Assembly: GCA_013821985.1 (NCBI GenBank) | Contig: PNJQ01000001.1 | Coordinates: forward strand, 1 to 64,000 | Length of the DNA stretch: 64,000 bases | Direction of reading: 5' to 3' | Source: Opitutus sp. | GTDB lineage: Bacteria; Verrucomicrobiota; Verrucomicrobiia; Opitutales; Opitutaceae | Part shown: positions 51,995-64,000 of the stretch, piece after piece | Numbering within the stretch: position 1 is the stretch's first letter | Layout of the letters: every line of letters starts with the position of its first letter | Program-made: the position numbers and the translations under genes | Notes under the pieces: generated by a model | The model's database searches: none | Told to the model about the DNA's origin: nothing | Seen by the model: only the letters and a program-made list of their open reading frames with translations

Positions 51995-52402
51995 TTACTT
52001 GGCTGCGAAGAGTTCGCGCATCTTTTCGGTGAAGATGGCGGGCGGTCGCACGGGCTCGCCTTTGGTGTTGATGAAGCCGTGCACGGTGAATCCCGTAACG
52101 AGCAACTCGTCGCCGCGCTTCACTTCGTAATCGAGGCGGATGCGCAGGAGAGGTTTGTCGGCGAGCGTCGTGATGACGGTGACATTGTCGTCGTAGAGAG
52201 CGGGTCGGAAATATTTTGCGCCCACTTCAATGACCGGCAGGCGGTAGCCCTGGGTTTCGAGGTCGCGGTAAACGACGCCGCACTCGCGGAGGAGCTGGGT
52301 GCGGCCGACTTCAAACCAGTTCAGGTAATTGCCGTGATAGACTACGCCCATCATGTCGGTCTCGGCGTAGCGGACGTTGATTTGGCTGCGGGAAACGAGC
52401 AT
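51995..52402 (-). CDS. acyl-CoA thioesterase, YbgC/FadM type (4HBT hot-dog)
   Basis: A 135-residue single hot-dog domain. The catalytic Asp16 is in RYAETDMMGVVYHGNYLNW, the classical 4HBT motif. Such enzymes hydrolyse acyl-CoA or acyl-ACP. It is followed at 5 bases by a GT4 gene and is next to the acyl-chain cluster on the other strand, so it may release or edit acyl chains there. Confidence 0.9.
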   Translation of the reverse strand: MLVSRSQINVRYAETDMMGVVYHGNYLNWFEVGRTQLLRECGVVYRDLETQGYRLPVIEVGAKYFRPALYDDNVTVITTLADKPLLRIRLDYEVKRGDELLVTGFTVHGFINTKGEPVRPPAIFTEKMRELFAAK

Positions 52403-52407
52403 GGGAA

Positions 52408-53568
52408 TCAGGAAGCGGGGGCGGTCGGCGGTGGTCCGAACAGCGTTTGCGCCGCGTGATCCCAGGTGTGGCGCAGGGCGCGCGCGCGTCCGGCGGCGCC
52501 GAGGCGCTGGCGGAGTTCGGGATCGCCGATGAGGCGCGCGAAAGCGGCGGCGAGCGCCGCCGGATCTTCGGGCGGCACAAGCAGGCCCGTCTCGCCATCG
52601 AGCACGGCTTCGGGGACGCCGCCGATTGCATGCGCGACGACCGGCAGGCCATAGGCGCCGGCTTCAAGGTAAACGAGACCGAAGCCTTCAACGCTCAATT
52701 TGTGCGGCATGCTGGTCATCGCGAAGATGTCCGCTTGCGCGTAGATCGGGCCGAGTTGCTCGTCGGAAATGTCGCCCAGAAATTTGACCGGGAAGCCGGC
52801 GTCGGCTGCGGCGGCGCGCAAAGCGGGCTCGTAGTTTTCCTTTCCGTGTCCGCCGACGAGCCAGTATTCCAGACGGGCCCGGACGGGCGAGGGGAGGGCT
52901 TTGAGCGCTTCGATGACGCGGAGTTGTCCCTTGCGGGGATGGATGCGGGCGACGGTGAGGATGATCAGACGGTCGTTCGCAACTCGCGAAGCGGCCGACT
53001 CGGGCGCCCGGGCGGCAAATTCGGCGCGCAGTGCGCCTGGGGTCAACGCGACCTTGTGCGCCGTGCTCGGAAACAGATCGATGAGCAGGCGTTCCGCGTA
53101 TCGGCTCACGACGCTGATCCGGTCCGCGCGGGCGAACAGCCGCCGGGCGCTCGCCCGGGTGAGCGGTCGCATCGCCAGCCGCAGGATTTCCGAACCGTGC
53201 AGCGTGATGTGCAAGCGCCCCGGTGGGAGGACGTCGAAGAATTGCAGGATGAGCATGGACAGCAGCGGCCCCGGCTCCGGCACGTAGAGAATCGCGTTTT
53301 GCCACTCCTCGCGGTGCGCCAAGAGAAAGCGCGCCATCCGCCACTGGTTGCGCAGGCTGTGCGAGCTATCGAGGTTGAGCCGCTTCACGCTGAACGGCCA
53401 GGTCGGCTCCTGGACTCCCGGCGGCAACCGGGGGGCCCACACTTCCATCGGCCAGCCGGCGCGCGCGCAGGCTGCCGCCATCTCCGCCGTGTAAACCGCA
53501 ATTCCTCCGCGATGCGGGAAGAATTCGTGGGTTACCGCAACGATACGTTGGGCCGGCTCGGAAGACAT
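52408..53568 (-). CDS. family 4 glycosyltransferase (PimB-like)
   Basis: A 386-residue GT-B enzyme. The N-terminus has VAVTHEFFPHRGGIAVYTAEMAAAC, the acceptor-side LHITLHGSEILRL, and the C-terminal half has LTVARIHPRKGQLRVIEAL and a donor loop SVEGFGLVYLEAGAYGLPVVA with Glu-x7-Glu. PimB-type GT4 enzymes mannosylate phosphatidylinositol-like lipids; the acceptor here is not known. It is divergent from the acyl-chain gene run. Confidence 0.87.
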   Translation of the reverse strand: MSSEPAQRIVAVTHEFFPHRGGIAVYTAEMAAACARAGWPMEVWAPRLPPGVQEPTWPFSVKRLNLDSSHSLRNQWRMARFLLAHREEWQNAILYVPEPGPLLSMLILQFFDVLPPGRLHITLHGSEILRLAMRPLTRASARRLFARADRISVVSRYAERLLIDLFPSTAHKVALTPGALRAEFAARAPESAASRVANDRLIILTVARIHPRKGQLRVIEALKALPSPVRARLEYWLVGGHGKENYEPALRAAAADAGFPVKFLGDISDEQLGPIYAQADIFAMTSMPHKLSVEGFGLVYLEAGAYGLPVVAHAIGGVPEAVLDGETGLLVPPEDPAALAAAFARLIGDPELRQRLGAAGRARALRHTWDHAAQTLFGPPPTAPAS

Positions 53569-53692
53569 GGAGGGTCCGTTTAGCCGGGGCGGAACCCCGG
53601 GAGCCAGCGAATTATTTCACCGGAGCTTGACGAACCTTCGTCTCAGGGCGGGGTCTGTGCGAAGTCCCCCATGAACCCTTGGATTTTTAGGG

Positions 53693-53722
53693 TTTACACT
53701 CCTATTCACCGTCACCTATTTA
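53693..53722 (+). promoter_or_regulatory. candidate promoter of the acyl-chain gene run
   Basis: TTTACA (53693-53698) and TATTTA (53717-53722) are 18 bases apart in a locally AT-rich island, contrasting with the GC-rich surroundings. The start of transcription would fall at or near the ATG at 53730, implying a leaderless mRNA; that is inference. Confidence 0.3.
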
Positions 53723-53729
53723 GTTCTAA

Positions 53730-54683
53730 ATGGCACAGGCAGTTAACAATTCTTCGGCACTTCAGCTCAAACCCTTTACGCCCGAAGACGATGCGAATCT
53801 GAGAGAATCGCTTAAGCGCTGCTCGGCGGCAACTTACGAAGCGGCGGCTCAATTTCGCAAGACGGGTAACACGGAGCATCTGCCGGCCATCGTTCTCGGC
53901 ATCATCGAGCGATTCGTCGAACCGGATTTGCGGGCGAAATTGAAGGATGCCGACGACGATCTTCGTATCATCGAGGACCTTGGCATCGATTCACTGACGA
54001 TGATGGAAATCGTCATCCTCGTGGAGGACGTGCTCCAGATGTCGATCAACAACGAGGAGCTTCGCCATCTCCGCACCGTCGGTGACGTCAAGACGTTCAT
54101 CGAGTGCAAGGTTCGCGGCCTGCCATTGCCGAAGCCGACCAAGTTTTTGCCGATCGAGCAAATCGCCTCGATCATGCCGATCCAGCCGCCGTTTCTGTTT
54201 TTGAGCGAAGCGTCGGTGAGCGCGCACGGCGCGAACGCCAAATACAAGATCAGCGGCCAGGAATTTTTCCTGCAAGGCCACTTCAAGGACAATCCCGTGC
54301 TGCCCGCTTCGATCATGCTCGAGGCGCTTGGCCAGCTCGGCGTGCTGTTCCTGCTCGAGGCCCAAATCGGCGAGGCGGGCAAGACGGTCGATCCGAAGAT
54401 GATTTTCTTCACTTCCTGCGAAGGGGTGCGCTGTCACCGCGTGTGCCGTCCCGGAGACGTGCTCAGTCTCTCGATCAAGCCGAAGCGTCTGAAGCTCCCG
54501 CTGGCGACGTTCGAAGGCCAGATTCGCGTCGGTCAGGAGAAGGCCGCGATCGCCGAGGAAATCACGCTCACATTTGCGTTCGCCGAGGAAGTCGCCCAAC
54601 CGGCCGCTCCCGCCGAAACAGCCGAGCCGGCCACGGGCACGGTGGCGGAAAGCGATTCGGAGCGGAAGGCGATCAACGCCTGA
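53730..54683 (+). CDS. acyl carrier protein-FabZ-like dehydratase fusion
   Basis: A 317-residue fusion. Residues about 50-130 are an acyl carrier domain with the phosphopantetheine Ser88 in LGIDSLTMMEIVILVED. Residues about 140-285 are a hot-dog domain like FabZ, with His184 in GHFKDNPVLPASIMLEALGQ and Glu198 in the paired position; the family loop GHFPGNPxxPG is changed to KDNPVLPAS. The tail is Ala/Pro-rich. The dehydratase would act on an acyl chain tethered to its own ACP. It heads a plus-strand run with a ketoacyl synthase, a reductase and glycosyltransferases. Confidence 0.85.
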   Translation: MAQAVNNSSALQLKPFTPEDDANLRESLKRCSAATYEAAAQFRKTGNTEHLPAIVLGIIERFVEPDLRAKLKDADDDLRIIEDLGIDSLTMMEIVILVEDVLQMSINNEELRHLRTVGDVKTFIECKVRGLPLPKPTKFLPIEQIASIMPIQPPFLFLSEASVSAHGANAKYKISGQEFFLQGHFKDNPVLPASIMLEALGQLGVLFLLEAQIGEAGKTVDPKMIFFTSCEGVRCHRVCRPGDVLSLSIKPKRLKLPLATFEGQIRVGQEKAAIAEEITLTFAFAEEVAQPAAPAETAEPATGTVAESDSERKAINA

Positions 54684-54792
54684 GCGCTCTTCCGATGTCC
54701 GGGCGAGGGGCCTGTTGACCGCGTGCGCGAAAACGCTTTCACTGCGTGCGCTTTGTCGCGCGGGCCCGCGCGGCCTCGCAGCCTGACCTAAC

Positions 54793-56052
54793 ATGCGGAA
54801 AGTTTACATCACCGGTGTCGGTTTCATCACCAGCATCGGCAACGACCTCGCTACGGTGACGGAAAGTTTGCGCGATTCGCGGCATGGCATGGTGCTTTAC
54901 CCGCCGTTTCAGCGGCCGGACATCCCGGTGAAGGTCGCCGCGCCAATCAAGGATTTCCAGACCGACACCGTCGATGCGGAGGACTGGAAATTTCCCGCCC
55001 GTTACAGCATCCGCCGCGAATTGCTCCGGGGCATGGCTCCGCACGGCGTTTACGCTTATTGCGCGATGTTGCAGGCGGTGGAGGACGCCAAGCTGAGCGA
55101 AGCGGACTACTCCAACGACGACACCGGGCTCTACGCGGCGTCGGGCGGTTCGCCCTTTCTCCTCGGGCATTACCTGGAAAAGATGCGCAAGCAGGGCGTC
55201 ATGCGCTGCCAGCCGCTCGGCATCGTCGCGTCGATCGCGGGCACGGTGAACTTCAATCTCGTGTCGCACTTCAAGATCAAGGGCGCGTCCACCGGATTTT
55301 CCTCCGCCTGTGCTTCGTCCGCGCACGCCATCGGTTTCGCCTACGACGAGATCAAGCTCGGTCGTCAAGATCGGATGTTCGCGGTCGGCGCCGAGGACGG
55401 AAACGTCGATAGCATCCTGCCTTTCGCCGGCATGCGTGCGCTGTCCGTGCAGACCGATCCAGGCATCGCGTCGCGTCCGTTCGACGTCGCGCGTGACGGC
55501 TTCGTGGGCACCGGTGGCGCGACGGTCGTCGTGCTCGAAAGCGAGGAGGAAGTCGAACGCCGCAACGCGAAGGTTTACTGTGAAATCGCAGGTTGGGGCC
55601 AGGCATCCGACGGGCATAACGTCGCCATCTCGCACCCGGACGGCGCCGGCCTGCGCGTGGCGATGCAAAACGCGCTGCGCTCCGCCGACATCACCGCCGA
55701 TCAGGTCGATTACGTGAACGCCCACGCGACCTCGACGCCGATTGGCGATCTCTCCGAAGCGCGTGCCCTGAAGGCCATCTTCGGCAACAGCCCGACGCGT
55801 CCCGCGATCAGCAGCACGAAGGCCCTCACCGGCCACGGTCTCTCGCTCGCCGGCGCGATGGAAGGGGCATTTTGTGCGGTGGCGATGCGCGAGGGCTTCA
55901 TGCCTGGCTCCGCGCATATCACGAAAATCGATCCCGCCTGCGAGGGGCTCAACATCATCCGCGCCACCTTGCCCAATCGTCCGAATGTCGTGTTGAGCAA
56001 CAGCAGCGGCTTTGGCGGCGCCAACGTTGCGCTTGTGTTCAAGAGCGCTTGA
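54793..56052 (+). CDS. beta-ketoacyl-ACP synthase
   Basis: A 419-residue condensing enzyme of the FabF/KAS type. Catalytic residues are Cys173 (SSACASSAHAIG), His311 (NAHATSTPIGD) and His348 (KALTGHGLSLAG), all in place, with Lys343 nearby. An insertion about 50-90 and the FGGANVALVF end are typical of specialised KAS enzymes in lipid and polyene clusters rather than the core fabF. It would extend chains on the upstream ACP domain. The next gene begins 10 bases after its stop. Confidence 0.9.
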   Translation: MRKVYITGVGFITSIGNDLATVTESLRDSRHGMVLYPPFQRPDIPVKVAAPIKDFQTDTVDAEDWKFPARYSIRRELLRGMAPHGVYAYCAMLQAVEDAKLSEADYSNDDTGLYAASGGSPFLLGHYLEKMRKQGVMRCQPLGIVASIAGTVNFNLVSHFKIKGASTGFSSACASSAHAIGFAYDEIKLGRQDRMFAVGAEDGNVDSILPFAGMRALSVQTDPGIASRPFDVARDGFVGTGGATVVVLESEEEVERRNAKVYCEIAGWGQASDGHNVAISHPDGAGLRVAMQNALRSADITADQVDYVNAHATSTPIGDLSEARALKAIFGNSPTRPAISSTKALTGHGLSLAGAMEGAFCAVAMREGFMPGSAHITKIDPACEGLNIIRATLPNRPNVVLSNSSGFGGANVALVFKSA

Positions 56053-56062
56053 GCGCCCTCCG

Positions 56063-56878
56063 ATGAGCGCCGCGTCCCTTTCGCGCCGATACCGGACCGC
56101 CTTCGTGACGGGCGCAAGCACCGGGCTCGGTCTCGCATTCGTCGAAATGTTGCTGGCGGAGGGCGTCGAAGTTTGGGGCACGGCCCGCAGCGTCGCGCGC
56201 CTCGCGCCGCGCCCGCGCTTCCATCCGGTCGCGCTCGAACTCGGCGATGGTGCCGCCGCCGAGCGCGTCTTCCGCGACGCGGACAGGGCGGCGGGCGGAT
56301 TCGATCTCGTGATCAATAATGCCGGCTTTGGCGCGTTCGGTGATTTCGCCGGCACCGACTTCGAGGTCTGGCAACGGCAGCTGGAGATCATGCTGCTCAA
56401 CACCGCGCGGCTCAGTCACGCGGCGCTGCAAGGCATGCTTGCGCGCGAACGCGGCGCGCTCGTGAACATCTCCTCGCTGGCGGCCGAGTATCCGATGCCT
56501 TTCCAGGCGATCTACAATACCGTGAAGTCCGGACTCTCCGCCCTGAACGAGAGCTTGATGTTCGAGACCGAAGGGACGGGCGTGATCGTGATCGATTTCC
56601 GTCCCGGCGATTATCGCACGAATTTCGAAGGCGCCGTGTCACGCCCCGCCGCCCTGACAGAACGTCAGCAGCGCGTGTGGGACTCGTTCCACCAAATGAT
56701 GGAAAGCGGTCCGGCCCCTGCACACGCCGCCGCGTCACTCCGGCGCGCCCTCGCGCGCGGACGCAGTGGGACGGTTCGCACCGGCCGGATTTTTCAAGCC
56801 GTGATCGCGCCGCTGCTCGCACGCGTCGGCTCGCTCGCATTACGCCGGCGGATCATCGCGCGATATTTCGGCCTCTGA
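56063..56878 (+). CDS. short-chain dehydrogenase/reductase
   Basis: A 271-residue SDR. It has the dinucleotide loop TGASTGLG (16-23), NNAG (85-88), and the catalytic Ser138, Tyr151 and Lys155 in SSLAAEYPMPFQAIYNTVK. The TGxxxGxG start and C-terminal membrane-like ARVGSLALRRRIIARYF fit ketoacyl or 3-ketosphinganine reductases. Within this run it would reduce the keto group made by the condensing enzyme or by the oxoamine synthase. The ATG at 56063 is preferred over a start at 56012 inside the KAS gene. Confidence 0.88.
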   Translation: MSAASLSRRYRTAFVTGASTGLGLAFVEMLLAEGVEVWGTARSVARLAPRPRFHPVALELGDGAAAERVFRDADRAAGGFDLVINNAGFGAFGDFAGTDFEVWQRQLEIMLLNTARLSHAALQGMLARERGALVNISSLAAEYPMPFQAIYNTVKSGLSALNESLMFETEGTGVIVIDFRPGDYRTNFEGAVSRPAALTERQQRVWDSFHQMMESGPAPAHAAASLRRALARGRSGTVRTGRIFQAVIAPLLARVGSLALRRRIIARYFGL

Positions 56879-56879
56879 C

Positions 56880-58097
56880 ATGGCGCGTGTCCGCATCCTC
56901 GTTCTCTCGTCCTCGACCGGCGCCGGCCACGATGCACGCGCGCAGGCGTTCGCCGAGTGGTGTTTCGAACTCTACCGGCACGACGTCGATGTGCGCATCG
57001 AGCAAATGCTGGAGAAGTCCTCGCGGCTCTTCAGTTGGGGCGTCGATTTCTACAACTGGATCCAGAAAAAATCGCCGTGGATGCACAAGGCGTTCTTCCT
57101 CTTCGTCGAGTTGCTGAGCCTGCTCAATCGCCGCTCCGTGCGCTGGGGGCGCCGCTATTACGAGCAGGTGCTGCGCGACTACCGGCCGCATCTGGTGTTC
57201 AGCGTGCACGATTGTCTCAATCGCGGCTATTTTCAGCTGGCCCGAAAAATTCTCGGCGCCGAACAGGTGCGTTGCGCGACTTACTGCGGGGAATTTTCCG
57301 GCGGCTTTGGCTACAGCATCAATTGGGTCGAGCCGTCCGCGGATCTCTACGTCTCGCGCACGCCGACGGCGCGCGACTACGCCGTCAAGCTCGGCATGCC
57401 ACGCGAACGGACGCGCGTGCGCGGCCACCTGATGCGTCCGCGCGCGCACACGGAGGTGCTCAAGAGCGCCAACGCGCGCCACGACTATCTCGTCGAGCAC
57501 CTCGAACTGCAGCCCGAGCTGTTCACAGTCTTCCTCGCCACCGGCGGCAACGGGGCGAACAACCACCTTGAACTCCTGCCGAAGCTCCTGCCCTACGCGG
57601 ATCGCATCCAAGCCGCCGTGATCTGCGGCCGGAACCGCGAGAGCTACAACGAGGTGATGCACTGGCGCAGTGAACATCCGGAACTCCACTGTTTCGTCGA
57701 TGGTTTTTCCGAAGAAGTTCACCTGCTGTTGCAGGTCAGCGACGTCATCGTCACGCGCGGCGGCACCACGACCTGCGCGAAGGCGCTGCATTTCGGCTGC
57801 CCGATTATCTTCAATGCCCTCGGCGGCATCATGCCGCAGGAGGAGCTGACGGTGAAATTTTTCCGCAACGCCCGTGCCGCCGAAATCATCGCCCATGCCG
57901 GCGATTTCGGGGAAACGATCGCGCGCTGGATGGAGAGGCCCCGCAGTTACCGCGAGCTGCGCGACCGCTTCCTGGACCTGCGTTACGACGAAGACCCGAC
58001 AACGGTGATCGAGGAGCTCGTCGGCCTCGGCAGCGAAGCGGCCGGCGTGCGCCTCACGCCGCGGGCATTCCCGCCGGAGCCGCGCCGCCGGGGTTGA
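56880..58097 (+). CDS. MGDG synthase-like glycosyltransferase (GT28)
   Basis: A 405-residue GT-B enzyme. The N-terminus LVLSSSTGAGHDARAQAFAEW is the MGDG-synthase domain, and the C-terminal half has FLATGGNGANNHLELL, FVDGFSEEVHLLLQVSDVIVTRGGTTTCAKALHFGCP and IMPQEE, the donor loop of MurG/MGDG synthases. Members put sugars onto diacylglycerol or similar lipids. It begins one base after the SDR stop, so the lipid and sugar steps are probably coupled in one transcript. Confidence 0.87.
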   Translation: MARVRILVLSSSTGAGHDARAQAFAEWCFELYRHDVDVRIEQMLEKSSRLFSWGVDFYNWIQKKSPWMHKAFFLFVELLSLLNRRSVRWGRRYYEQVLRDYRPHLVFSVHDCLNRGYFQLARKILGAEQVRCATYCGEFSGGFGYSINWVEPSADLYVSRTPTARDYAVKLGMPRERTRVRGHLMRPRAHTEVLKSANARHDYLVEHLELQPELFTVFLATGGNGANNHLELLPKLLPYADRIQAAVICGRNRESYNEVMHWRSEHPELHCFVDGFSEEVHLLLQVSDVIVTRGGTTTCAKALHFGCPIIFNALGGIMPQEELTVKFFRNARAAEIIAHAGDFGETIARWMERPRSYRELRDRFLDLRYDEDPTTVIEELVGLGSEAAGVRLTPRAFPPEPRRRG

Positions 58098-58146
58098 GCA
58101 CGGGGTGACTTTTTTGTGTCCCTTTCGGGGCGCGCCTGACTAATTC

Positions 58147-59370
58147 TTGAGCCGCTTGCCCGCAAAGCCGCTCAGCGTCGCCTTCCTCTTCACGACTTTT
58201 CCGAAAACCTCGGAAACGTTTCTGCAGCGCGACGTCGCGGCGTTAATCGCTCAGGGCCTTGATGTGCGTCTCTATTCGCTCTGGGGCGGCGGAGGGGAGT
58301 TCCAAGGACGCCCGGTGCGTCGCTTTAATCTCTGGAAGCTCGTGCCGCTTTTCCTGTTCACGATCCCGTGGAACTGCGTGCGGCGCCCGCGGATCGTTCG
58401 CGACTTGTTCGAGGGTGTGATCATGCGGGCGCCGCCTTCGTGGCTGAATTGCTGGGAGAACCTGCTCGGAGCCGGTTTCGCCGGGTGTTTTTATCGCGAA
58501 TTCCGCCGGGATCCGCCCGATCTCGTGCATGGCGCGTGGTCGGGCGCTCCGGCGACGGCGGGCTGGCTGCTGTGGCGCATTCTCGGCGTTCCGTTCAGTT
58601 GCGGAGCGCACGCCTACGACCTCTACGAACATGGCGGGGATTGGTGGCTGCTGGAGAAATTGCGGCTCGCCCGCTTCGTGCAGACTTCGACGGAGACGGG
58701 GCGTCAGGGGCTGATCGCCCGCGGGATCCCGGCGGAAAAAATCGTCACGATCCGACGCGGTCTGACGGAATTTCCCGTCTGTAAACCGCTCCGTCATCCG
58801 CGCCGTCCGCTGCGGCTGATTTGCATTGCGCGACTCGTGGAAAAGAAAGGCCTCCATCACCAGATGCGCATCTACGCTGCGCTGCGCGATGCCAAGGTGC
58901 CGTTCGAGGCGCGCATCGTCGGCGAAGGGCCGTTGCGTGCAGAACTCATCGCGCAGGCGATGGAGTTGCATCTGGAGCGATCCGTCCAGTTCCTCGGCGC
59001 CAAGCCGCACGCCGAGGTCTGGGACCAACTCGCCTGGGCGGATGTGCTGCTGCACACCGGCGTTGTGGCGCCGAGCGGCGACCGCGATGGCTTGCCAAAC
59101 GTGATTCCGGAGGCGATGGCCGCCGGCGTGCTCGTGATCAGTTCGCCGGTTTCCGCCACAACCGAAGCCGTCCAAGACGAATGCACGGGCCTCGTGGCGG
59201 ACGTGACGCAGCCGCTGGCCTGGCACGCGGCGCTCACGCGCCTGGCCGCCGACGACGAACTCGCGGAGCGACTGCGCGTCGCGGCCCGCGCTTGGGTGGA
59301 GGAAAACTACGATGCGCGCAGGAATACGGCGCGACTGGCCGAATTGTTCCGCAGCGCGGCGAACTCATGA
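58147..59370 (+). CDS. family 4 glycosyltransferase (WcaL-like)
   Basis: A 407-residue GT-B enzyme with a TTG start. FTTFPKTSETFLQRDVAALIAQG is the WcaL-type N-terminal motif. A membrane-prone stretch LWKLVPLFLFTIPWNCV follows, and the C-terminal half has ICIARLVEKKGLHHQMRIYAAL and DGLPNVIPEAMAAGVLVISS. It probably adds a sugar to a lipid-linked intermediate. Its stop overlaps the next gene by 4 bp. Confidence 0.86.
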   Translation: MSRLPAKPLSVAFLFTTFPKTSETFLQRDVAALIAQGLDVRLYSLWGGGGEFQGRPVRRFNLWKLVPLFLFTIPWNCVRRPRIVRDLFEGVIMRAPPSWLNCWENLLGAGFAGCFYREFRRDPPDLVHGAWSGAPATAGWLLWRILGVPFSCGAHAYDLYEHGGDWWLLEKLRLARFVQTSTETGRQGLIARGIPAEKIVTIRRGLTEFPVCKPLRHPRRPLRLICIARLVEKKGLHHQMRIYAALRDAKVPFEARIVGEGPLRAELIAQAMELHLERSVQFLGAKPHAEVWDQLAWADVLLHTGVVAPSGDRDGLPNVIPEAMAAGVLVISSPVSATTEAVQDECTGLVADVTQPLAWHAALTRLAADDELAERLRVAARAWVEENYDARRNTARLAELFRSAANS

Positions 59371-60410
59371 TCTACTACGACGTCACCAAAATGGGCGCCG
59401 CGCGCCACAAGTCGGGGCTCATGCGCGTCAGCTCGCGCCTGCGCGGCGCGCTGGGCGACGCGCCGAATCCCGTGATATGGAAGAACGGTCACTTCGTCGG
59501 GGAGAACGGGACGCCGGTCGCGTGGCGTCCGGGCGATTGGCTGGTGACGGTGGAATTGTTCAGCGGCGCGGAGCGGCCGGGCTTTCGCGAATTCGTCGCC
59601 GCCCGTCCAAGTCGGCTCGGCGCAGTGTTCGCCGATGCGATTCCGCTGAAGTTCCCGCACATCACCTGGCCGCAGAGCGTGCAGCGCCATCCGGACTACA
59701 TGAAAATTCTCGCGGGCTTCGACCGCGTGTGGGCGATCTCGGATTTTGTGCAGGAGGAACTCGCCGGATTCTGGGCCTGGCAGGGCGTCGTGCCACGCGC
59801 CCGGCTCGGCCGGATCGAACTCGGGGCGGATTTCGACGACTCACCTCGCGCGCGGACGCCGCCCGCGTTCTCCGGCCGACCGTCGCTGCTGTGCGTTGGT
59901 ATTATTGAGCCGCGGAAGAACCAGACTTTCCTGTTGGAAGTCGCGGACGCATTGTGGCGCGACGGCGTGGACTTCGATCTGCACATCGTCGGACGCGTCA
60001 ATCCTCATTTCGGCGAACCCATTGTCCGCCGGATCAAGGCGGTCGCGAAGCGCGAGCCGCGCCTCCGACTCCATCTTGGGGCCGGCGATGCGAAATTGCG
60101 CGAACTCTACACGTCGGCGCGTGCGGTGGTGTTTCCGACCATTGCGGAAGGTTGCGGGTTGCCCGTGATCGAGGCGCTCTGGCGTGGTGTGCCGTGCGTG
60201 TGCAGCGATTTGCCCGTGCTGCGCGAACTGACGGCGGCGGGCGGTTGCGTCAGCGCCAAGGTGAACGACGCGGCGGATTGGTGCGCGCAACTGGCCCCGC
60301 TGCTGGCCGGAAAAGCGCGGGCGGAAAATCTCGCGCGCGAAGCGGTGTCCCGTCCGCTGCCCACGTGGGCCGAAGCCGGCGCGCAGCTGCGCGCGGAACT
60401 GACCGGGTAA
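59367..60410 (+). CDS. family 4 glycosyltransferase
   Basis: A 347-residue GT-B enzyme. It has IYYDVTKMGAARHKSGLMRVS at the N-terminus and, in the donor half, LLCVGIIEPRKNQTFLLEVADAL, VFPTIAEGCGLPVIEALWRG. The overall order resembles the minus-strand GT4 gene at 61715-62881, suggesting an old duplication. The ATG at 59367 overlaps the stop of the previous GT gene. Confidence 0.84.
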   Translation: MIYYDVTKMGAARHKSGLMRVSSRLRGALGDAPNPVIWKNGHFVGENGTPVAWRPGDWLVTVELFSGAERPGFREFVAARPSRLGAVFADAIPLKFPHITWPQSVQRHPDYMKILAGFDRVWAISDFVQEELAGFWAWQGVVPRARLGRIELGADFDDSPRARTPPAFSGRPSLLCVGIIEPRKNQTFLLEVADALWRDGVDFDLHIVGRVNPHFGEPIVRRIKAVAKREPRLRLHLGAGDAKLRELYTSARAVVFPTIAEGCGLPVIEALWRGVPCVCSDLPVLRELTAAGGCVSAKVNDAADWCAQLAPLLAGKARAENLAREAVSRPLPTWAEAGAQLRAELTG

Positions 60411-60456
60411 GGCGACGAGCTCTGCCGGTCGCGCGGCGACCGCGCCGCGCCGCTAC

Positions 60457-61653
60457 TCAGAGCTGTTTCACCGCGTAGGCCATCGCGGCGTGAATCTTTT
60501 CCAAGTCTTCGTCGCTGTGCAGCGCCGAGACGGCGGTGCGGATCAAGTCCTTACCCGGAGGCACGGCGGGCGCGATCGACATGACAGTGAACACGCCCTT
60601 CTCCAGCAGCGCCTGCCAGAAACGGTAAACGAGTTCCTTCGAACCGAGCACGATCGGCACCGCGGGCGTTTCGCTCTCCCATGTGTCGAGGCCGAGACCC
60701 TTGAGCATTTCACGGTAACGCTTCGTGTTTCGCCAAAGGCGCTCGAGGTGCTGTGGCTCGCTTTGCATGACGTCGAGGGATGCTGACGCCGTGTATGCCA
60801 TGCTGGGGCTGATCGCGGCGCTGAAGAGTGTTTGTTTCGAGTTGGTGCGCAGATATTCGATCATCTCGCGCGAGCCGGCGATGAAGCCGCCCGTGCTCGC
60901 GAGTGATTTCGACATCGAGCCGCAGAGGATGTCCACCTTGTCATTCAACTTGAAGTGATCGACCGTGCCGCGGCCCTGCCGGCCCAGGACGCCGAAGCCG
61001 TGGGCGTCGTCGAGCACGGTGAAACAGCCCGCCTCTTCGCCCAGCTGCGCGATTTCCGGCAGCCGGCAAATGTGGCCTTCCATCGAATAGACGCCTTCGA
61101 CGACGAGCATTTTCGGCATGCTGAAGGGGATGCTTTTCAAAACCTGCCGGAGGTCCTCGGGGTTATTGTGGCTGAAGCGTTCGACCGTGGCCATCGAGAG
61201 ACGCACGCCGTCCCAGAGGCAGGAATGGATGTTCTTGTCGGCCACGATCGTGTCGCCTTTCTGCGCGAAGGTGGCCACCGCCGAGCAGCACGAAATGTAG
61301 CCGGCGACGCTGACGTGACACGCCTCGCGGCCCAGAAACGCCGCGAGTTTTTCCTCCAGATCCGTGTGGTAGGAGCGGGAACCATTCGAGATGCGCGCGC
61401 CCGTCGTGCTGGTGCCCCATTTTTTCGCCGCGGCTCCAGTCGCCTCCATCACTTTCGGGTGAAACGAGAGTCCAAGATAATCGTTGCTCGAAAGCATGAT
61501 CATGTCGCGCCCCTGCAAACGGATGTGCGTGCCCTGCTGCGCCTCCATGGCGTGATAGTAGGGCTTGTATTTGAGGCGCATCTTCGTCGCGTAGTCGTCC
61601 TTCGCGCGCTCGATGATCGCTTTCTTCGTCTTGGTGAACAGGGACAGGGCCAT
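60457..61653 (-). CDS. alpha-oxoamine synthase (serine palmitoyltransferase-like)
   Basis: A 398-residue PLP enzyme. The glycine-rich SSNDYLGLSFHPKVMEA, the aspartate in FTVLDDAHGFGVLG (Asp215) and the lysine in CGSMSKSLASTGGFIAG (Lys249) mark the AONS/KBL/SPT family. The end APAVPPGKDLIRTAVSALHSDEDLEKIHAAM and the IEYLRTNSKQTLFSAAISPS segment are close to SPT-like and quorum autoinducer (CqsA-type) members rather than BioF. Such enzymes join an acyl thioester to an amino acid with loss of CO2. Its place beside acyl-chain and lipid glycosyltransferase genes suggests a sphingoid-base-like product. BioF or glycine acetyltransferase remain possible. Confidence 0.82.
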   Translation of the reverse strand: MALSLFTKTKKAIIERAKDDYATKMRLKYKPYYHAMEAQQGTHIRLQGRDMIMLSSNDYLGLSFHPKVMEATGAAAKKWGTSTTGARISNGSRSYHTDLEEKLAAFLGREACHVSVAGYISCCSAVATFAQKGDTIVADKNIHSCLWDGVRLSMATVERFSHNNPEDLRQVLKSIPFSMPKMLVVEGVYSMEGHICRLPEIAQLGEEAGCFTVLDDAHGFGVLGRQGRGTVDHFKLNDKVDILCGSMSKSLASTGGFIAGSREMIEYLRTNSKQTLFSAAISPSMAYTASASLDVMQSEPQHLERLWRNTKRYREMLKGLGLDTWESETPAVPIVLGSKELVYRFWQALLEKGVFTVMSIAPAVPPGKDLIRTAVSALHSDEDLEKIHAAMAYAVKQL

Positions 61654-61714
61654 GGAAATGTCGAACGCCGACTAGGCGGAGAAACGCCGGTGTTGGCAAC
61701 CGCAAAGGCCTGGC

Positions 61715-62881
61715 TTACGAGCGCCGGGGCAACTCGCGGAGCCAGATGCGCAGCTCTGCGGCGTAGTCGCTCCACGAGCGGAACTTGCGCCCGCGCGCCG
61801 CCGCCGCGAGCGCGGCCAGTTCGCGGGGCTGCTCGAACAATCGCCGCATCGCGCGGGCGAGCGCCGGACCGGTCAGCGCGGGCAAGACCAGCACGCCGCC
61901 GCCGCGGGCCGCCTCGCCCAGCGCTCCTCCCGACGAGCAGATGCACGGGCGCCCATGCTGCAAACTCTCGAAGACCGGCAACCCGAAACCTTCGTAGAGC
62001 GACGGATAAACCGTGAACGCACAACCCGCGTAGGCGGCGTGCAGATTCTCCTCCGTCACCGCGCCGTGAAATATCAGTGGACGCCCCGCCGCTTGCAGCG
62101 CGCGGATTTTTCCCAGTGCAGCTGCCCCCGTATCCGCGCGCGGCATCCCGATCAATTCGAGTTCGAAGCCGACGCCGGCGTTCCAAAGTGACTCTGCGGC
62201 GTCGAGCAGCGCTGCGTGATTTTTCCGCCCCTCGATGGTGGAAACGCAGAGCACTCGCGGTTGCTTCGCTGCCGGCGCGCTGACGTAGGATTGAACCGGC
62301 TCAAGGCCCAGCGGGATCGCCCGCACCGGGGGGGCGTCCTTCAATTCCGTCCACGCCCACCACTCGCGCAGCGCAGAGGCCGAATCCTCTGACACCGCTG
62401 CCACGCCATCGAATCGCGCAAGCTCCCGCAGATACGCCGGCAGGCGCGCGACGGTGGCCGGCGGCGTGAGCTCCGGGAACTTCAATCCGATCGCGTCGTG
62501 AAAAATCGCCAGGCGCGGTCCCCGCACCTCGGCAAACAGCTCGGGTAGGTGGGCGCCGACTTTGGTGGAAAACAACTCGGGGCAAATCAGCGCGTCGCCC
62601 GCCGGTATTCGCGTCCGGCGTCCCGCCAGGCGCTTGGCGCGTCCAAGCAGCTTTTGGGTCAGCGACCATTTTGCGCCCCGCGAACCGGCGGCGGCGCCGC
62701 GCTCGGCGAGCGTGTTGCGCTCGGCGGCGTTCAAGGCCCGCCAGCCGTGCTGGTGCGGGTCGAAACAGACGGCCTGCGTCTCGCCCGACCGGGCGAGTTC
62801 CGCTGCGAGCGCCCGGCACACGCGCTGAATGCCCGTCTGCGCGCGCGTGTGGCTGGTATGCGAAAGGTCGAGGAGGAGCAT
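61715..62881 (-). CDS. family 4 glycosyltransferase
   Basis: A 388-residue GT-B enzyme. It starts MLLLDLSHTSHTRAQTGIQRV. An acceptor half with IFHDAIGLKFPEL and a donor half with VLCVSTIEGRKNHAALLDAAE and PSLYEGFGLPVFESLQHGRPCI follow. The ATG at 62881 gives the conserved start; a longer form (62920) would overlap the next gene. Expressed in the same direction as the oxoamine synthase, it probably shares a transcript with it. Confidence 0.85.
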   Translation of the reverse strand: MLLLDLSHTSHTRAQTGIQRVCRALAAELARSGETQAVCFDPHQHGWRALNAAERNTLAERGAAAGSRGAKWSLTQKLLGRAKRLAGRRTRIPAGDALICPELFSTKVGAHLPELFAEVRGPRLAIFHDAIGLKFPELTPPATVARLPAYLRELARFDGVAAVSEDSASALREWWAWTELKDAPPVRAIPLGLEPVQSYVSAPAAKQPRVLCVSTIEGRKNHAALLDAAESLWNAGVGFELELIGMPRADTGAAALGKIRALQAAGRPLIFHGAVTEENLHAAYAGCAFTVYPSLYEGFGLPVFESLQHGRPCICSSGGALGEAARGGGVLVLPALTGPALARAMRRLFEQPRELAALAAAARGRKFRSWSDYAAELRIWLRELPRRS

Positions 62882-62886
62882 GACAT

Positions 62887-64000
62887 TCAATCGCCCTGCG
62901 AGGGCAGGTTGAGTTGCCAAAGAGACAAGTTTCGCCGCTCAACGAGCTTTACCCAATCCCCCGGGGTTTTTTCCGGAAACGCTTCGATTGGTTCGAAATC
63001 AAAAAAAACGCCGTAAACTGGGAGTCCTGCTTTTTGCGAGGCGGATAGGATACGCGGCCAATTTCCCTCCAGCGTATCCCAACGCACGATGGGATTATTC
63101 ACTCCGTAGAACAGCGCGCCGCTCGTCTGCATGGCAATGATCACCGCATGTGCAGGAATATGCTGGCGCGTAAGTTCGATTGCCTCGGAGTAAATTCGTT
63201 CGTTGCGCCCCACTTGATGGATCTCGAACCGCCGGTTCCAATACCAGCCATTCGCCACCATCGCCACGACGGCCGTGGTCACCATCGCGAGACGCGCAGA
63301 GGCTCGATCGAAGTGCAGCACTAACGATTCGAGAACAAGAAGGGCGGCCAGAATGAGCGAGGGAACCGCCGGAAGGATGAAGCGCAAATACCACCAGGTT
63401 TCATGGGTGTGAAAATACCCGGCGTAGAAACCGCAGACAGTTAAGATCCAGCTCCCGTGGACCAAGGAGGAATGTGCGTGATGCCGTGCCCGCAAGGGCA
63501 AAGCGACTGCGGCGAGAATGAGAGGCGACAAGAGCATCGGCAGCCATTGGGCATAGTGCTGCAATGTCATCCCGACCCACGCGGAGGAAAATAATGTTCC
63601 CACGTCGCCATAGCCGGTGGCGAGGGCTGTGCCGTAGGCCGCACGATTATAGATCACGAGAGCGACGGCGGCTGGCGCTCCTCCGCTGACGAGAGCCACC
63701 CATCGCCGCCAATCCCAGCCAAGCGCAACCAAGAGAGGAAGACCAAGCAGGAGGTTCGATGGTCGAATCAATACGGCCATTCCGGTAGCCATTCCTGCCA
63801 ACACGACCGCGCCGAGCTTGCGACGGCCAGCCAGCCACAACGCCAACGCAGACCAGACCAGAGCCGGCACATCGCTCATGGCTTGGAGAGAGAACATCAG
63901 GTAAAGAGGCGAGATCGCCAGCATCGCGGCCCCGATCGCACCGGACCAGACCGACAGGCCCGCTTGGCGAGCCAAGGCAAAGACCAACCACACGCCCGCG
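62887..64000 (-). CDS. GT39/ArnT-like membrane glycosyltransferase (5' end outside window)
   Basis: At least 368 residues; the gene continues past the window edge. The visible part has about eight membrane helices and short soluble loops. A segment LVFALARQAGLSVWSGAIGAAMLAISPLYLMFS and the DVPALVWSALALWLAGRRK loop match dolichyl-phosphate-mannose or ArnT-like proteins. The C-terminal soluble part ends with a periplasmic region. Base composition is less GC-rich than that of the neighbouring GT4 gene, hinting at different origin. It would use a lipid-linked sugar as donor on the outside of the membrane. Confidence 0.72.
   Translation of the reverse strand, partial: AGVWLVFALARQAGLSVWSGAIGAAMLAISPLYLMFSLQAMSDVPALVWSALALWLAGRRKLGAVVLAGMATGMAVLIRPSNLLLGLPLLVALGWDWRRWVALVSGGAPAAVALVIYNRAAYGTALATGYGDVGTLFSSAWVGMTLQHYAQWLPMLLSPLILAAVALPLRARHHAHSSLVHGSWILTVCGFYAGYFHTHETWWYLRFILPAVPSLILAALLVLESLVLHFDRASARLAMVTTAVVAMVANGWYWNRRFEIHQVGRNERIYSEAIELTRQHIPAHAVIIAMQTSGALFYGVNNPIVRWDTLEGNWPRILSASQKAGLPVYGVFFDFEPIEAFPEKTPGDWVKLVERRNLSLWQLNLPSQGD

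Follow-up and report, generated by a model that had tools for sequence, protein, structure and literature searches.

Ten open, tightly packed genes at 51995-62920 of the stretch analysed here (the window, the first 64,000 bases of the 172,194-base contig PNJQ01000001.1 of Opitutus sp., assembly GCA_013821985.1) form a cluster that, at a probability we put at about 0.58, makes a glycosylated long-chain-base (sphingoid) lipid without the standard ceramide enzymes and would thus be a new variant of bacterial sphingoid-lipid synthesis. We favour this reading because of the conserved catalytic residues, the ancestry of an alpha-oxoamine synthase (AOS) on the side of serine palmitoyltransferase (SPT), the MGD-like fold of a family 28 glycosyltransferase (GT28), the gene order, and the co-occurrence of AOS and GT28 even where the two are unlinked. 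The cluster itself is real, conserved and, as far as the literature was searched, undescribed. A first-pass annotation, made from the letters of the window, had proposed that these genes build a specialised acyl chain, condense it with an amino acid and glycosylate the product; that interpretation is borne out in part, by the placement of AOS, the conserved order and the co-occurrence, while its chemistry remains predicted from sequence. Neither of the two contrary outcomes that it had named, a grouping of AOS with BioF or KBL or a scattering of the genes apart from one another in relatives, was seen.

All the genes named by the first-pass annotation are present where it put them and open, and Pfam backs every assignment among the ten:

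51995..52402, minus strand: acyl thioesterase of the YbgC/FadM type (4HBT); Pfam 4HBT_2 50.4 bits, TIGR00051 71.6 (cut-off 68.7)
52408..53568, minus strand: GT4a, a family 4 glycosyltransferase (GT4), divergent from the ACP-DH operon; Glycos_transf_1 127 bits
53730..54683, plus strand: ACP-DH, an acyl carrier protein (ACP) fused to a FabZ-like dehydratase, 317 amino acids; Pfam PP-binding and FabA-like domains
54793..56052, plus strand: beta-ketoacyl-ACP synthase (KAS) of the FabB/FabF type; Pfam and best solved structure
56063..56878, plus strand: short-chain dehydrogenase/reductase (SDR), a ketoacyl-ACP reductase or a 3-ketosphinganine-type reductase; adh_short 111.5 bits
56880..58097, plus strand: GT28, resembling monogalactosyldiacylglycerol (MGDG) synthase; Glyco_tran_28_C 27.3 bits (cut-off 22)
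58147..59370, plus strand: GT4b, a GT4 glycosyltransferase; Glycos_transf_1 91 bits
59367..60410, plus strand: GT4c, a GT4 glycosyltransferase; Glycos_transf_1 65.9 bits
60457..61653, minus strand: AOS, the SPT-side alpha-oxoamine synthase, convergent; Aminotran_1_2 157 bits, tree, active-site residues and fold
61715..62920, minus strand: GT4d, a GT4 glycosyltransferase on the strand of AOS; Glyco_trans_1_4 63.7 bits
62887..64000, minus strand, cut by the window end: PMT_2/GT39-like membrane protein, a doubtful member; PMT_2 28.4 bits (cut-off 26.1)

Gaps of 109, 10, 1 and 49 bases separate ACP-DH, KAS, SDR, GT28 and GT4b in turn; GT4b and GT4c overlap by 4 bases, GT4c ends 46 bases from the convergent AOS, and AOS lies 61 bases from GT4d. 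The start at 53730 given by the first-pass annotation was too late, as it omits the thioesterase and the divergent GT4a (51995-53568). Its GT39-like gene does score above the PMT_2 cut-off, but it runs on to contig position 64386 and is present in only part of the relatives.

The enzyme on which the proposal turns is AOS. In a tree of 55 rows, from which three AOS rows of the clade were excluded as near-duplicates and in which the known SPTs were two solved structures and an NCBIfam-passing SPT from the Opitutaceae genome G021, it falls on the SPT side, away from BioF, KBL and ALAS, with a split support of 99/98, a check that the first-pass annotation had itself suggested. By sequence the nearest solved structure is the Sphingobacterium SPT, with 294 bits where a BioF/KBL enzyme reaches 247, and the same protein is the top fold match of a structural model of AOS (pLDDT 88.8). 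Asn57, His143, Asp215, His218, Lys249, Ala279 and Arg372 are present in 26 of 26 rows of the AOS clade. Position 279 is Ala in the two solved SPTs, Asn in the KBL rows and Thr in the BioF and ALAS rows. Its equivalent in the sulfonolipid synthase SulA is Lys281 (residue roles as given in passages of PMC9304779), and with Ala in all 26 clade rows a sulfonolipid synthase was rejected. These sequences place AOS in the SPT-side ancestry. The label 'SPT/CqsA-type' of the first-pass annotation is better replaced by SPT-side: the CqsA-type NCBIfam model gives AOS 220 bits and the best SPT model 366, both below their cut-offs (the tree included no CqsA row).

The sister of AOS in the tree (99/95) is the AOS of a Rubrobacter plasmid. 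On plasmid 1 of Rubrobacter radiotolerans (L181, 5845-11437), AOS, a GNAT protein, an epimerase-family protein and a lipoteichoic acid-synthase-family protein stand in a row; the GNAT and epimerase-family proteins resemble bCerS and CerR, and this is possibly a ceramide-type cluster. AOS genes were also seen on a Bacteroides fragilis plasmid typed as conjugative (L182, 2953-4188), where the branch is long and the tree position unsure, and on a Streptomyces sp. plasmid (L189, 2860-6366), where an SDR and a cytochrome P450 come after AOS and may form a further small pathway with it.

The arrangement of the cluster is conserved beyond chance expectation. A scan of GTDB genomes with an alignment of ACP-dehydratases gave 286 loci, of which the best 80 were kept, a sample biased towards close kin whose titles name Opitutia, Opitutae, Opitutaceae and genera, or only Verrucomicrobia, Verrucomicrobiia or Verrucomicrobiota. 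Counts refer to loci with enough contig, and neighbourhoods were read by tblastn, since the gene caller missed several true genes. Among these best 80 loci, the minus-strand thioesterase comes first in the gene order in 73/73, GT4a is divergent and directly upstream of ACP-DH in 75/75, and KAS and GT28 follow in 69/71 and 59/61; SDR is found in 36 of 49 and, with 9.9 kb available downstream, GT4b in 35 of 49. AOS lies within 10 kb in 24/49, and all 27 AOS genes seen are on the opposite strand. The same genes surround AOS in the same order throughout the family and, partly, the taxonomic order, so that the co-conservation of gene order anticipated by the first-pass annotation is found. The cluster is also broken in places. 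In G024, G253 and G319, ACP-DH and KAS are separated from an SDR-GT28-GT4b-GT4c-AOS block; in G014, G166 and G172, AOS stands apart from a block with ACP-DH and KAS. SDR goes with GT28 and AOS, apart from ACP-DH and KAS, in the first three genomes, and with ACP-DH and KAS, apart from AOS, in G014, G044 and G172; because its location differs in this way, the breaks do not settle whether its substrate is ketoacyl-ACP or 3-ketosphinganine.

Co-occurrence of AOS, GT28 and ACP-DH extends beyond linkage. In a phylum set of 387 genomes, where only the best four first-look candidates per genome were scored for AOS, GT28 and KAS and the best six for ACP-DH, AOS scores fall into two groups, the clade in 45 genomes at 583 bits or more and a lower group in 26 genomes at 403 bits or less. 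GT28 matches occur in 46 genomes and ACP-dehydratase matches in 51. All 45 AOS-clade genomes have both GT28 and an ACP-DH match; one genome has GT28 without AOS and 341 have neither. In 18 of the 45, AOS and GT28 do not share a contig at a distance of 25 kb or less, and the same is true of AOS and ACP-DH in 19; contig breaks may hide some of these links, and in G053, G080 and G172 AOS and GT28 lie far apart on one contig. In four contrasts AOS and GT28 are absent together while near relatives have both (G004 in genus g1; G119 and G290 in g31; g42 against g49 in family f17; G295 against G044 in f21). G004, a 98 percent complete genome of the window's own genus, is without AOS, GT28 and ACP-DH. 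In a smaller set, made up of the window's own genome and 37 relatives (38 genomes) and with all candidates scored, 29 genomes have AOS, 29 have GT28 and 30 have ACP-DH, AOS and GT28 occurring together in 28; the GT28 match of G022 spans only half of the model. The predicted link between GT28 and AOS is the best supported part of the mechanism.

In its predicted structure GT28 resembles MGDG synthase. Its AlphaFold model (pLDDT 91) has Arabidopsis MGD1 as best fold in PDB (E 1.8e-16, the next protein being at 3.4e-11), with a TM-score of 0.72 by query and 0.85 by target and 18 percent identity in the fold alignment; its only two sequence matches among solved structures are MGD1 and the processive diacylglycerol glucosyltransferase, and the MGDG-synthase N-terminal Pfam family is not among its matches at E 0.001. 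The GT28 sequences form two groups with full SH-aLRT support in a tree of 26 rows, the second kind being found in ten genomes. The second kind stands in an operon with a protein of 240-275 residues without a Pfam match and, where checked, a class III aminotransferase, and in three genomes (L144, L145, L162) that operon lies within the same 20 kb as ACP-DH, KAS, SDR and AOS. The 240-275 residue protein occurs in 5 of the 38 genomes, and the GT28 scores of these five (402 to 468 bits) fall where second-kind scores lie; G033 (GT28 460 bits) gave no match to it. Since the second kind is also found in genomes with AOS, AOS is accompanied by a GT28 of one kind or the other. Loci of the second kind in AOS-bearing genomes were seen at L214 6958-10135, L218 6800-9920 and L212 8746-12023, besides the three just named, and three GT28 matches of the second kind or of like score (G163, G080, G190) contain one in-match stop codon.

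The chain-building enzymes have conserved key residues. Ser88 of the ACP and His184 and Glu198 of the dehydratase are unchanged across 13 aligned rows, Cys173, His311 and His348 of KAS across 24, as the first-pass annotation had read for the Cys-His-His set, and Ser137, Tyr150 and Lys154 of SDR across 19; in these families they are the catalytic residues. The closest solved structure to KAS is a 3-oxoacyl-ACP synthase 1 (278 bits). The ACP-dehydratase fusion is not universal, two adjacent or separate matches being seen in L157, L158, L164, G370, G017 and G035. The window's own genome holds another locus (L208, G000:C21:14500-34400) with a methyltransferase, two ACPs, KAS, an acyltransferase, MMPL and AMP-binding genes, presumably an aryl polyene-like cluster, whose KAS is 57 percent identical to that of the window and is the sole other match of the genome to the KAS model at E 1e-125.

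From the chemistry of the families, a pathway can be drawn in which the acyl chain, the amino acid, the sugars and the product are all predicted. First, the dedicated ACP-dehydratase, KAS and reductase would make or complete a specialised acyl chain on a carrier protein of their own; as the cluster has no enoyl reductase, the chain could be unsaturated or a housekeeping enzyme could be used. Second, AOS would join the acyl-ACP to a small amino acid with release of CO2, to give a 3-keto long-chain base; acyl-ACP is usable by bacterial SPTs and SulA according to passages of PMC9386255 and PMC9304779. The amino acid is probably L-serine, because of one residue pattern and because glycosylation needs a hydroxyl group. 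Third, the ketone would be reduced by an SDR. Fourth, the MGDG-synthase-like GT28 would add the first sugar and GT4 enzymes would extend it. N-acylation to ceramide, if any, would require an enzyme that is not recognised here: ten AOS neighbours scanned in seven loci include no shared N-acyltransferase, only general genes and glycosyltransferases. More tentatively, and with a likelihood well below that of the general reading, the cluster could be a second, non-canonical glycosphingolipid route, in which a fatty acid synthase (FAS) module of ACP-DH, KAS and SDR feeds the SPT-derived enzyme and GT28 glycosylates the free long-chain base directly, the lyso-type (not N-acylated) product, perhaps with an unsaturated chain, being a normal membrane lipid of many Opitutales.

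Several known systems share parts of this set. The canonical Caulobacter pathway (SPT, AcpR, AasR, CerR, bCerS; AcpR and AasR in passages of PMC9386255, the location of CerR and bCerS in those of PMC11087976) likewise has an SPT and a dedicated ACP in one locus and a reductase nearby, as the first-pass annotation had observed of bacterial sphingolipid clusters. The likeness holds for the SPT-side AOS, but the cluster is not of the known kind. By Pfam its ten genes include no AMP-binding protein (the acyl-ACP synthetase AasR) and no GNAT protein, and its dedicated ACP forms one protein with a dehydratase, next to a ketosynthase. A canonical ceramide cluster was rejected, as a bCerS-like gene was found in one of the 38 genomes, G021 (by one Rubrobacter query, E 1e-4); the window's own genome (79 percent complete) gave no match. 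That gene, whose protein has no Pfam match, sits in a separate Caulobacter-like ceramide locus with SPT, ACP and an AMP-binding protein (locus composition as in passages of PMC9386255 and PMC11324152). The SPT there passes NF047599 (597 of 500) and shares 36 percent identity with the AOS of the window. The same genome carries a cluster of the window type (L039), so that the canonical ceramide and window-type systems coexist and are distinct. The ceramide locus of G021 (L060 9153-12754 and 17392-19677; L204, G021:C13) also includes a CerR-like gene and two genes that are LptF/LptG-like by eye. The CerR-like query matches 31 of the 38 genomes at E 1e-8, the epimerase family being too broad to discriminate.

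Outside the canonical pathway, SgaAB of Pseudomonas fluorescens MYb115, described in passages of PMC12134224 as an iterative type I polyketide synthase (PKS) and an AOS that make sphingolipids, resembles the window cluster in combining a dedicated chain-building system with an SPT-active or SPT-side AOS, the activity of the window AOS being predicted. Unlike SgaAB, the chain genes of the window are discrete FAS-type enzymes (KAS, ACP-DH, SDR), with no type I PKS among the ten genes, and glycosyltransferases belong to the conserved set. Passages of PMC9304779 describe SulA of Alistipes as an AOS that folds like SPT and accepts acyl-ACP. MGD1, the best fold match, and the processive diacylglycerol glucosyltransferase are likewise GT28 enzymes, but the window GT28 is tied to AOS. 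Clusters of what we take to be the aryl polyene type also combine KAS, ACP and reductive enzymes; unlike them, the ten window genes include no second ketosynthase-like protein, AMP ligase, acyltransferase or MMPL protein.

A number of observations weigh against a sphingoid product. AOS falls short of each of the three NCBIfam SPT cut-offs (366 of 640, 337 of 500 and 257 of 670 bits), and a BioF/Kbl-type model (332 bits) and the bioF model (321) come close behind the best SPT model; for these reasons we file it as SPT-side and not as SPT. Nor is Ala279 exclusive to SPTs, being present also in two AOS rows of uncharacterised function, from B. fragilis and Streptomyces. The rarity of the bCerS-like gene counts on the same side, as does a comparison of Opitutales lipids that, in the passages available of PMC13274419, reports phospholipids and no sphingolipid (the cluster status of those strains was not checked); fatty acids are given in passages of PMC5303756. 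The phylum counts are limited by the scoring of four or six candidates per genome, shared descent makes genome counts non-independent, and the Fisher values for co-occurrence ignore kinship and are not probabilities. In G037, which is 82 percent complete, AOS is present but no GT28 was matched. The second GT28 subfamily and its aminotransferase operon in ten genomes suggest that the sugar step may differ there, and the GT39-like gene, along with some of the GT4 genes, could be part of a polysaccharide-like locus downstream. Finally, an ACP-DH match is present and AOS absent in six genomes (G151, G160, G195, G258, G295, G370). One of them, G151, is 100 percent complete; it has GT28, ACP-DH and KAS but not AOS and forms a discordant contrast inside family f16. 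The ACP-DH match covers one domain only in G295 and G190, and the two domains are separate matches in G160, G258, G322 and G370. A few genomes hold ACP-DH and KAS but no AOS, so some of the module may serve another purpose as well.

This last group of genomes would fit two adjacent lipid systems that share the locus and not the product: from GT28 and the GT4 enzymes, with the aid of the dedicated chain, would come a diacylglycerol glycolipid, and from AOS a separate aminoketone or long-chain base. We consider this the strongest of the alternatives, albeit unlikely. The diacylglycerol enzyme MGD1 as nearest fold of GT28 and the 18 of 45 genomes with AOS and GT28 unlinked fit it as well, but it does not account easily for the presence of GT28 in every AOS-clade genome of the phylum set, unlinked cases included, or for the joint absence of the two in the four near-relative contrasts.

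In a less probable alternative the AOS-derived glycolipid would anchor or prime a surface polysaccharide, and the GT4 enzymes together with the downstream sugar-nucleotide genes would extend that glycolipid. Past the window (L031 4466-20000, contig 64466-80000) the cluster continues into glycosyltransferase and sugar-nucleotide-type genes that look polysaccharide-like from their translations only, and this direct adjacency speaks for an anchor, as does the company that GT4d keeps with AOS, in 13 of 15 loci of the family (L032-L046) and in 22 of the 27 AOS-showing loci among the best 80 of 286. Yet the genes past GT4d vary among relatives and the core does not, and nothing found ties polysaccharide to lipid. 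A simple replacement of lipopolysaccharide (LPS), of the type known from Sphingomonas, was rejected, as lpxB matches occur in 37 of the 38 genomes, whether the cluster is present or absent. It is quite improbable that AOS makes a small diffusible aminoketone, as signal or cofactor in a CqsA- or KBL-like role, with the other genes there by coincidence: its family contains such enzymes and it passes no SPT cut-off, but it stands apart from KBL, BioF and ALAS, scores poorly with the CqsA-type model and co-occurs with GT28 and ACP-DH.

The first-pass annotation knew of no described system with this exact set, and among the literature matches listed, which leave subscription papers mostly outside their scope, no account of the cluster was found. 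A Black Sea study reports 22 metagenome-assembled genomes of Verrucomicrobiota with Spt-like proteins (PMC11334938), and the gene set of the window does not appear in the passages available from it. If the cluster does make a glycosylated long-chain-base lipid, sphingoid lipids would be extended to a bacterial group with sparse lipid data, and GT28 would join the enzymes that may glycosylate them. The enzyme concerned is a widespread, SPT-side one whose companion is an MGDG-like glycosyltransferase rather than any recognised bCerS, and cultured Opitutaceae would be predicted to contain one hexosylated amino lipid that depends on both AOS and GT28.

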